A program made the translations under genes and the position numbers. From Flavobacteriaceae bacterium PRS1 (lineage in GTDB: Bacteria > Bacteroidota > Bacteroidia > Flavobacteriales > Flavobacteriaceae), in the NCBI GenBank assembly GCA_003709165.1, contig RDRZ01000001.1, positions 1-64,000 of the forward strand: 64,000 nt of DNA. Direction: 5' to 3'. The number at the start of each line of letters is the position of its first letter. The stretch's first letter is position 1. Shown here one piece after another: positions 58,367-61,197 of this stretch. Under the pieces are notes generated by a model. It ran no database searches, was not told where the DNA came from, and was given only the letters and a program-made list of their open reading frames with translations.

Positions 58367-59389
58367 ATGAATTCCCAAAATATTTATATACTAGGAATTG
58401 AATCTTCTTGCGACGATACTGCTTCATCTGTAATTTGCAACGGAAAAGTTATAAGCAATGTTGTGGCAAATCAAAAAATTCATGCCGAATATGGTGGTGT
58501 TGTACCCGAATTAGCCTCAAGAGCGCATCAGCAAAATATAGTTCCAGTTGTACATCAAGCATTAAAAAAAGCTGAGATTAACAAATATCAACTTAATGCT
58601 GTTGCTTTTACTCGTGGTCCTGGGTTAATGGGTTCGTTGCTTGTTGGTACGTCTTTTTCAAAATCTTTGGCTTATGGATTAAATATTCCGCTTATAGATG
58701 TAAACCACATGCAAGCACATATTTTGGCACATTTTATTGATGAAGACGGTTTTGAAAAACCTAAATTTCCGTTTTTGGCCTTGACTATTTCCGGAGGCCA
58801 CACACAAATTGTAAAAGTGAATGACTATTTTGATATGGAAGTTATTGGTGAAACCATAGACGATGCTGTTGGTGAAGCCTTTGATAAAAGCGGAAAAATT
58901 TTAGGTTTAAATTATCCTGCTGGATCAGAAATTGACAAACTTGCACAGTCAGGTAATCCTAAAGCTTTCAAATTTACAAAGCCAAAAGTTGAGGGTTTAA
59001 ACTTTAGTTTTTCAGGCTTTAAAACTGCTGTTTTATATTTTATTCAGCGCGAGGTAAAAGTTAATCCAAACTTTATAAAAGAAAATCTAAACGATATTTG
59101 TGCTTCTATACAATATACTATTATCGGAATTTTAATTGATAAACTAAAATTGGCGACAAAGCAAACTGGCATAAACCAAATTGCAATTGGTGGTGGCGTT
59201 TCGGCAAATTCAGGAATACGAAAAGCCTTAAAAGATGGCGAACAAAAATTTGGGTGGAAAACTTATATTCCAAAATTTGAATTCACTACAGACAATGCTG
59301 CAATGATTGCCATTGTTGGCTATTTAAAGTATTTAGATAAAGATTTTGCTGGACAGGATGTGATGGCTTCGGCAAGGCTTAAAATTTAA
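58367..59389 (+). CDS. tsaD: tRNA t6A threonylcarbamoyltransferase TsaD
   Basis: A 340-residue Kae1/TsaD protein. GIESSCDDTASSVI at the start, VPELASRAHQQNIVPVV and MQAHILAHF with the iron-binding histidines, LTISGGHTQIV, GEAFDKSGK and IGGGVSANSGIR are all present. With TsaB and TsaE (tsaE is at 40299) it makes t6A37 in ANN-decoding tRNAs. It is divergent from tamB. The TfoX remnant follows after four bases. Confidence 0.95.
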   Translation: MNSQNIYILGIESSCDDTASSVICNGKVISNVVANQKIHAEYGGVVPELASRAHQQNIVPVVHQALKKAEINKYQLNAVAFTRGPGLMGSLLVGTSFSKSLAYGLNIPLIDVNHMQAHILAHFIDEDGFEKPKFPFLALTISGGHTQIVKVNDYFDMEVIGETIDDAVGEAFDKSGKILGLNYPAGSEIDKLAQSGNPKAFKFTKPKVEGLNFSFSGFKTAVLYFIQREVKVNPNFIKENLNDICASIQYTIIGILIDKLKLATKQTGINQIAIGGGVSANSGIRKALKDGEQKFGWKTYIPKFEFTTDNAAMIAIVGYLKYLDKDFAGQDVMASARLKI

Positions 59390-59393
59390 AGAT

Positions 59394-59672
59394 ATGCCAT
59401 ACAACGAAACTATAGCAATCAGAATTAGAGAGCAACTTAAACTTTTTATACCAATGCAAGATGACTGTTGGTATAGTAAAAGAGGATTTGGTAGTTAGGA
59501 TTATTGCTTCTAAAATGGAAACTATTATGCAAAATTAAAATGTTGACCTATGGATTTTACCAAACGAGCTATGAAAGAATTTATTTATGTAGCTTCTGAA
59601 GGCTTTAAAACTGAATCTCAATTATTACATTGGATAGAACTTGGTTTAGAACACGCAAAAAGCAAGTTGTAA
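59394..59672 (+). pseudogene. TfoX N-terminal domain protein, decayed
   Basis: The start reads MPYNETIAIRIREQLKLF, as in small TfoX/Sxy N-domain proteins. The same frame ends MDFTKRAMKEFIYVASEGFK followed by ...LLHWIELGLEHAKSKL, matching the PMDFTGRPMKGFVFV part of the family. Between them stops occur at TAG 59496, TAA 59511 and TGA 59544, and about a third of the normal middle (the GGLCFMVDGKM region) is gone. It is a relic of about 93 codons. Position coordinates of the stops are approximate. Confidence 0.7.
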
Positions 59673-59698: not shown

Positions 59699-60500
59699 AT
59701 GCAGTTATTCCACAATCCAAATATTTCTAATAAAACCAAACTGTTTTCTTTTAGCAAAGAAGAAAGTAGGCATATAGTTAAAGTGCTTCGGAAAAAGATA
59801 GGAGACAAACTGGATATTACTAACGGAATGGGTTGGCTATTTACATCGAAAATAATAAGTGCTGATATTAAAAAATGTGTGGTGTCAATTGAGACAAAAA
59901 CACTTCAACCCAAAAAAAACCAGCTGCTCCTCCTCCTATAATTGCTACTTTCATTAAAGCATTATTTTTCTGATATAAGCAGATTTTTCATGGCAGATTG
60001 AATACCATCCAGGGTCATTGGGTACATTTGCTGATTCATAAACAAAAATGAACGACCGCTATGAATGGTTTCTGGAAAAAGCTACCGAAATTGGTATCGA
60101 CAGCATCACTCCTATTATTTGCGACCATAGTGAACGGAAAATCATTAAGCACCAACGCTTTGAGAAGATATTACAATCTGTAATGAAACAGTCGCTGCAA
60201 TGTTATTTACCACAATTAAACCAAGAAATATCGTTTAAGAAATTTATAAATCAAGATTTAAAAGGACAGTTATTTATTGCACATTGCAACAAAAGGGATA
60301 GAAAATCACTTAAAAGCGAACTATTATCAAAACAAGATATAACCATTTTAATTGGTCCAGAAGGCGATTTTTCTGTTAAAGAAATTGAAATGGCTATCCA
60401 AAATAAATTTATTCCCGTAACTTTGGGAGAAACCAGATTACGAACTGAAACTGCTGCTATTATAGCGTGTCATAGTGCAGCAAATACAAATGAATCTTAA
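59699..60500 (+). pseudogene. rsmE: 16S rRNA m3U1498 methyltransferase, disrupted by replaced internal segment
   Basis: The N-terminal PUA-like part (MQLFHNPNISNKTKLFSFSK to CVVSIETKTLQPKK) is open from ATG 59699 to about 59910. The C-terminal SPOUT knot is open from 60048 in another frame (MNDRYEWFLEKATEIGIDSI, LIGPEGDFSVKEIEMA, LGETRLRTETAAI). In between, where about 11 residues such as LHIAIAPTK are normal, lie about 130 foreign bases (59912-60045) with a stop at 59939. On the opposite strand these read MKVAIIGGGAAGFF, the start of an HI0933-type flavoprotein, plus the end of another gene. The enzyme cannot be made as one chain. Confidence 0.85.
59913..60045 (-). pseudogene. Antisense fragment: 5' end of HI0933-like flavoprotein plus 3' end of upstream gene
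   Basis: On the minus strand ATG 59954 begins MKVAIIGGGAAGFF, the dinucleotide-binding start of the NAD(P)/FAD-dependent oxidoreductase (HI0933/BaiN) family, cut at an A-tract after 14 codons. A frame before it reads ESANVPNDPGWYSICHEKSA and YIRKIML, ending with TAA that overlaps the ATG as TAATG, a classic coupled junction of two genes. The fragment sits inside rsmE. Confidence 0.6.
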
Positions 60501-61197
60501 CTTAAACACCGATAACGGATTAATTCTTTCCTTTTGGGAAAGATGTCCAAAGGACAGAAAGGGCATTTTCTCTTTTCTCTTTTGTCTTTTTTCTCTTATC
60601 TTATTCTCCCAAGACATCGCCATTTTAAAATACAAAGGTGGAGGCGATTGGTATAGTAATCCAACATCGTTACCAAATCTTATTAAATTCTGCAATGATA
60701 ACATCAATACTAAAATCAATCCCAAACCACAAACTGTAGAAACTGGAAGTATTGATATTTTTCAATATCCTTTTATTCACATGACAGGACATGGAAACGT
60801 GTTTTTTAACGATACTGATGCCAAAAATTTACGAAACTATTTAATATCTGGAGGTTTTTTGCATATTGACGATAATTACGGAATGCAACCTTACATTACC
60901 AAAGAATTAAAGAAAATTTTTCCAGATAAAGAATTAATTGAACTTCCAAAAAACCATGAGATTTTTAATATTGCTTATAAATTCCCAGAGGGATTGCCAA
61001 AAATACATGAACACGATGGCAAGCGCCCACAAGCATTTGGTTTTTTTTTTGAAGGCAGACTCGTGCTGCTTTTTACTTTTGAAAGTGATTTAGGTGATGG
61101 CTGGGAAGATGCCGAAGTACATAATGATCCTAAAGAAGTGAGAGAAAAGGCCTTGAAAATGGGAGCAAATATTATAAAATTTGCTTTTGAAAACTAA
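60490..61197 (+). CDS. DUF4159 domain-containing exported protein
   Basis: A protein of up to 235 residues. The DUF4159 part starts at AILKYKGGGDWYSNPTSLPNLIKFCN and includes YPFIHMTGHGNVFF, LRNYLISGGFLHIDDNYGM and GFFFEGRLVLLFTFESDLGDGWED. The hydrophobic stretch IFSFLFCLFSLILFSQ is a signal sequence, but it has no ATG directly before it; the nearest ATG is 60490, inside the end of rsmE, with a repeat-like sequence (60526-60563) read through in between. The product therefore has an odd N-terminus with about 27 extra residues. Periplasmic; function unknown. Confidence 0.75.
   Translation: MNLNLNTDNGLILSFWERCPKDRKGIFSFLFCLFSLILFSQDIAILKYKGGGDWYSNPTSLPNLIKFCNDNINTKINPKPQTVETGSIDIFQYPFIHMTGHGNVFFNDTDAKNLRNYLISGGFLHIDDNYGMQPYITKELKKIFPDKELIELPKNHEIFNIAYKFPEGLPKIHEHDGKRPQAFGFFFEGRLVLLFTFESDLGDGWEDAEVHNDPKEVREKALKMGANIIKFAFEN
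60526..60563. repeat. Repeat-like sequence at DUF4159 start
   Basis: CTTTCCTTTTGGGAAAG followed by ATGTCCAAAGGACAGAAAG contains two short dyads (CTTTCC/GGAAAG and GTCC/GGAC). It resembles an intergenic repeat family that I recall from Flavobacterium-type genomes. It lies where the start of the DUF4159 gene would be. Confidence 0.4.

Follow-up and report, generated by a model that had tools for sequence, protein, structure and literature searches.

The rsmE locus and its foreign-looking patch

The draft assembly, of 61 contigs and 2.42 Mb, is 84.65% complete, and its contig C11 (158,472 bases) contains the stretch of DNA analysed here (64,000 nucleotides, hereafter the window). The plus strand carries, in this order, tsaD, a probable tfoX-like relic, rsmE in two parts and a DUF4159 gene (Table 1). 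With the exception of the relic, the tsaD-rsmE-DUF4159 order is common with the relative G002, in which tsaD directly adjoins rsmE, the listed open reading frames (ORFs) overlapping by 4 nt. The relic yielded PF04993 matches below the cut-off (E 0.015–0.025; 15–16 bits, with a cut-off of 30.1 bits), the pieces of which lie in different frames, and a PADLOC scan of tsaD gave no match.

Table 1. Features of the interrupted rsmE locus, with positions in the window
Feature	Positions	Strand	Evidence and remarks
tsaD	58367–59389	+	Intact flank; PF00814 6.5e-93
Probable decayed tfoX-like relic, in the tsaD/rsmE interval	59394–59672	+	Sub-cut-off PF04993; absent there in G002
rsmE 5' part, PUA domain	59699–59914	+	Open frame up to the junction; PF20260 (PUA_4) 5.8e-12; 77% aa identity with G002
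Foreign-looking patch replacing 33 nt of relatives	59915–60041	-	Single copy in the assembly
First 13–14 codons of a flavoprotein, probably HI0933/TIGR00275-like	59915–59954	-	DNA matches; weak profiles
Last ~26 codons and stop (TAA 59964–59962) of a CoxE-like VWA gene	59962–60041	-	Tail motif; PF05762 in a full-length member
rsmE 3' part, methyltransferase domain	60042–60500	+	PF04452 3e-39; 85% aa identity with G002; ten-relative alignment
DUF4159 gene	60475–61197	+	Intact flank; PF13709 1.6e-72

In the assembly, rsmE, a gene for the methylation of ribosomal RNA, is cut in two by unrelated DNA. The patch puts 127 nt in place of 33 nt in G002, and this net gain of 94 nt results in a frameshift. 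These lengths bear out the claim of the earlier note that about 33 bases of rsmE had been replaced by about 130, and it was also correct in describing the insert as the point where two genes unrelated to each other meet, in antisense orientation, inside rsmE. The upstream rsmE frame enters the patch and stops at 59941. An ATG at 60048 gives a 150-aa ORF over the 3' part, open to its stop, and the PF04452 match to this part (60048–60500) begins at profile position 16, the first 15 positions being missing. By comparison, rsmE is one frame in G002, G009, G010 and G012, and each of these four relatives matched both halves in two different frames, with 9–10 residues left unaligned between them. The PUA and methyltransferase domains, which RsmE has in one chain, are thus both present here, on two ORFs in different frames.

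The edges of the patch were defined by comparison with the DNA of G002, in which host identity extends on the left through the three A residues that follow CCC (59912–59914) and resumes on the right at 60042. As G002 has only three A residues at this position, the host share of any overlap at the left edge is at most about 3 nt. Runs of A or T are common in the window, with 36% of its bases in or touching runs of at least three and 7.4% in or touching runs of at least five. Given the three host A residues at the left edge and the frequency of such runs, the suggestion of microhomology-mediated template switching via A-tracts is unsupported.

The 3' part of rsmE has accumulated nine amino-acid changes specific to the genome under study and one specific to G002, as against 92 and 76 in seven neighbouring genes (Fisher p 0.045, with the 3' subset chosen post hoc). 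For the whole of rsmE, the same relaxation test (12:4 versus 92:76) was not significant (p 0.19). Among the 59 columns identical in ten relatives, the genome under study differs at two, and G002, in the same test, at one. The substitution pattern is at most a hint, and a weak one, of relaxed constraint. Separately, a contig of another genome of the same genus (G004, contig C53; L055) seems to end about 13 nt from the site of the rsmE split; this is probably a coincidence, with a chance of about 1% given 610 contigs in 2.5 Mb.

The two gene ends in the patch and their source

On the minus strand, from 59954 downward, the patch reads MKVAIIGGGAAGFF, a flavoprotein-type start. HI0933-like flavoproteins (PF03486/TIGR00275) have an N-terminus with the Rossmann sequence GGGAAG. 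The closest DNA matches of the start in the patch are the starts of HI0933 genes in other genomes (90% over 41 nt and 90% over 40 nt). Protein profile searches with the 13–14 codons, in which the queries extended into host-derived residues, gave weak and unspecific matches: HI0933_like at 0.063, Pyr_redox_2 at 0.29, and TIGR00275 at 0.11, behind two other nucleotide-binding families (0.047 and 0.053). A GFF form of the flavoprotein start is common among the relatives. From these matches, the start is probably HI0933-like. The earlier note had described the patch as the end of one gene and the first 14 codons of an HI0933-type flavoprotein; the two gene ends, those of a VWA gene and of a flavoprotein, were recovered, the HI0933 identity being probable.

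The frame upstream of the flavoprotein start reads, on the minus strand, FMNQQMYPMTLDGIQSAMKNLLISEK, and its TAA (59964–59962) precedes the flavoprotein ATG (59954–59952) by 7 nt. Its tail motif, MYPMTL[DE]G[aliphatic], was searched for as a degenerate DNA pattern in genome contigs and was found at 119 loci or more. Among the matches listed, the motif forms the C-terminus of one VWA protein family at 117 of 119 loci, 116 of which also have W[LI]NP upstream, the remaining one being truncated by a contig end. The tails, counted from the M of the motif, are 17–34 residues long (median 18) in the 116 measured among the matches listed, and that of the patch has 21 residues. A full-length member of the tail family, with which an alignment was made, carries PF05762. 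The tail motif assigns the upstream frame to the 3' end of a CoxE-like VWA gene. Going by name, nearly all of the 80 titled loci among the 119 matches listed are presumably from Proteobacteria; the exceptions among these titled matches were a Chitinophagales MAG (L167) and a Kapaibacterium MAG (L133), the latter not being a VWA tail. In viral_contigs, the tail pattern had no matches.

The earlier note placed the end of the upstream gene at a coupled TAATG junction. It ends elsewhere, as the TAATG is out of the VWA frame, which has its stop at 59964–59962. In a protein search of the phylum, the VWA frame gave weaker matches (best E 0.124; 19 of 395 genomes, including that under study) than the frame ending in TAATG (best foreign E 0.0036; 101 of the 395 genomes at E of 1 or less, again including that under study). 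However, eight of the ten best foreign matches of the TAATG frame fall within frames of 1051–1274 codons, and the one checked was not at a gene end. For this reason, and since the pattern scan confirmed the VWA frame, we set the TAATG frame aside as the upstream gene. Neither upstream frame of the patch had a match in Pfam, NCBIfam or PDB.

No second copy of the patch was detected in the assembly, the other matches being short and with E values of 0.16 or worse. The resident HI0933 gene (contig C16) starts MKHYDVIIIGGGAAGYF, with different DNA, and was rejected as the source because of this different start. The full HI0933 gene with an exactly duplicated 5' junction that the earlier note had suggested looking for elsewhere was accordingly not found in the genome: the resident gene starts differently and the patch DNA is single-copy. 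Since the assembly holds no source copy, a rearrangement would mean import, or an origin in the unassembled part of the genome.

When the patch was compared with 40 relatives, with 395 genomes of the phylum and with 226 from the order to which G408 belongs, the best matches covered only the flavoprotein start or short stretches of up to 54 nt. No match spanning both gene ends was obtained in the 395 or the 226 genomes, and the donor was not found there; nor was the junction of VWA tail and flavoprotein start present in genome_contigs, searched with an exact degenerate pattern. Within 600 nt downstream of the VWA motif, GGG[AP]AG occurs at one of the 119 loci listed (L149), with a different spacing. 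The VWA profile matched none of 40 genomes, which range from that under study to members of its order. This search had no internal positive control, a role filled by a search with a single VWA protein, which was positive in 2 of the 395 phylum genomes (G408 and G227, both of family f24) and not in G000. With PF05762 at 1e-10, VWA proteins were identified at three loci in 2 of 40 relatives; the tail motif is absent from all three loci, and we count these proteins as a putative other subfamily. The single plasmid match (90% over 30 nt, E 0.4) and the two phage records (92% over 26 nt, E 0.5) were taken as chance, and both kinds of source were rejected.

The G+C content of the patch is 35.4%, as against 31.8% for the window, and 29% of the 130-nt windows along the sequence reach a value as high. 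This content is not unusual, so composition gives no sign of foreignness. Nevertheless, the patch is most likely foreign, to judge from its single copy, the different start of the resident HI0933 gene and the lack of VWA profile matches in the 40 genomes.

Decayed genes around rsmE

About 8 kb on from rsmE, on the same contig, lies a pseudogene of a Thump-like methyltransferase (PF18096 in G002): the segment C11:67945-68175 (L112) aligns over the first 77 of 403 residues and has two in-frame stops. The SpoU gene that follows the DUF4159 gene in G002 is missing from the C11 matches listed at 45% identity or more. On contig C22 (C22:116515-118847), two neighbouring genes are frame-shifted relative to G002. 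In the best explanation of the locus, the neighbourhood of rsmE is losing genes. Two further observations concern the flanking sequence. Between 61198 and 66860, C11 has about 5.6 kb where G002 has the SpoU methylase gene, and within the window this interval includes two ORFs that match Kre9/KNH-like domains, one of them just below the cut-off. The Thump-like pseudogene is followed by unrelated sequence and then, by eye, by apparent tRNA genes.

A survey for similar splits was carried out with the G002 ORFs of at least 110 codons, antisense frames included, that had matches of at least 60% identity in 534 kb of the genome under study (116 ORFs). Seven of these ORFs were matched in several pieces; four correspond to paralogue neighbours, and the rest are rsmE and the two frameshifted genes of C22. 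Another three were matched in part, one of them being the Thump-like gene. The reverse survey, with 121 ORFs of the genome under study, yielded five multi-piece rows (four paralogues and one short ORF) and three partial rows. Apart from rsmE, the 116-ORF survey showed no ORF interrupted by unrelated sequence; two of its partial rows, and one split and three partial rows of the reverse survey, fell outside the check.

Possible origins and known systems

Our best guess from the sequence, evenly poised between right and wrong and closely rivalled by an assembly error, is that the cell really did acquire a short foreign fragment by illegitimate capture. The chromosome of another bacterium would have supplied 127 nt in which a VWA gene ends and a flavoprotein gene begins, and illegitimate joining on either side would have fixed this fragment in a break within rsmE, with the loss of 33 nt of rsmE. 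The gene would thereby have turned into a pseudogene, recently, where other genes nearby are also being shed. It is established that rsmE is split, how much of it is replaced, that the VWA end is what it was identified as, that the assembly has the patch only once and that decayed genes lie nearby; we infer, in addition, that the structure is present in the DNA of the cell and not only in the assembly, and that the fragment is foreign and arrived by uptake of free DNA or by end-joining at a break. The decay on the same contig (the Thump-like pseudogene and the probable tfoX-like relic) counts in favour of capture, as does the finding that rsmE is the sole ORF in the survey seen to be split by unrelated DNA. 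However, the 3' part of rsmE is open and has kept 57 of the 59 shared columns, and the patch is about as long as one short read.

The earlier note had left a choice between a rearrangement and an assembly chimera, and these are still the alternatives to be weighed. Random ligation of library fragments fails as an explanation, because the flanks are the same gene, in order and 33 nt apart, with the gene order of G002. A more specific artefact, to which we give somewhat less than an even chance, would be a small gap between correctly ordered rsmE pieces that was filled, through short A-rich overlaps, by a read from a co-occurring organism. The genome has no second copy of the patch, the VWA profile matched 0 of 40 genomes and one VWA protein 2 of 395 in the phylum (not G000), both parts of rsmE are otherwise open, and 127 nt is close to one short read, in a draft of 61 contigs that is 84.65% complete. 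The junction overlap that can be proved is also small; in published work on bacterial rearrangement junctions, microhomology cut-offs of 7–9 bp served for telling true junctions from ligation chimeras (PMC3411829). Nonetheless, there is no sign of a gap at the locus, which lies on a contig of 158 kb, the 116-ORF survey turned up no further patch like it (a few rows being outside the check), and k-mer assemblers would not be expected to join twice on a few shared bases.

It is very unlikely that the patch was copied from a VWA-flavoprotein locus in an unassembled part of the same genome. Judged by its completeness, the assembly lacks about 15% of the genome, which would leave room for such a locus, but none of the four other genomes of the genus (77–94% complete) has a VWA match, and G000 and the two relatives of the genus in which an HI0933 gene passed the cut-off have one each. 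Still less credible is a functional split, in which each domain would be translated as a protein of its own, with the ATG at 60048 as the start of the second. The cut does fall between the PUA and methyltransferase domains, and the 3' part does begin with an ATG and stays open for 150 codons. However, the first 15 positions of the methyltransferase profile are left unmatched, and in the intact relatives RsmE is one chain in which this ATG is an internal codon.

To return to capture, its fuller statement would be that a conserved gene for RNA modification took in 127 nt of foreign DNA, whose source may be a distant lineage, in a real event that came to dominate the population. Illegitimate recombination would then have occurred twice, under natural conditions, in a part of the genome from which RNA methyltransferase genes are being lost. 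We put this forward tentatively from the sequence, as a serious possibility that falls short of an even one. If the event is real, it shows that conserved genes can be inactivated in nature by very small pieces of foreign DNA that lack homology, a route called insignificant in natural populations in a published account (PMC7192050). If it is an artefact, the locus provides a clear template for spotting genes that are falsely broken in draft genomes, with a read-sized foreign patch, intact flanks and no second copy.

Among known systems, SPDIR (Harms et al. 2016) is reportedly a process in which a short piece of host DNA is replaced by a short unrelated piece through two non-homologous junctions, and it is already in print. 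The present locus is similar in that, in the assembly, a short host segment of 33 nt is replaced by an unrelated segment of 127 nt. It differs from SPDIR in that this patch is longer than the segments reportedly involved there and in that the event is a putative one. SPDIR is also said to involve microhomology at the junctions and an identified donor; here, three host A residues lie at the left edge, with an overlap of at most about 3 nt, and the searches of genome_contigs and of the 395 and 226 genomes yielded no donor. Gap-fill chimeras and local misjoins occur in metagenome-derived genomes. We found no literature on such chimeras with microhomology. The locus resembles a gap-fill chimera in having foreign DNA of about the length of a read at a small replaced interval of a draft genome, but the 116-ORF survey would then contain only this one example. 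Lastly, bacterial end-joining by Ku/LigD captures filler DNA at double-strand breaks, and the locus shares with such captures a small deletion accompanied by an unrelated insert, with little overlap at the joins.
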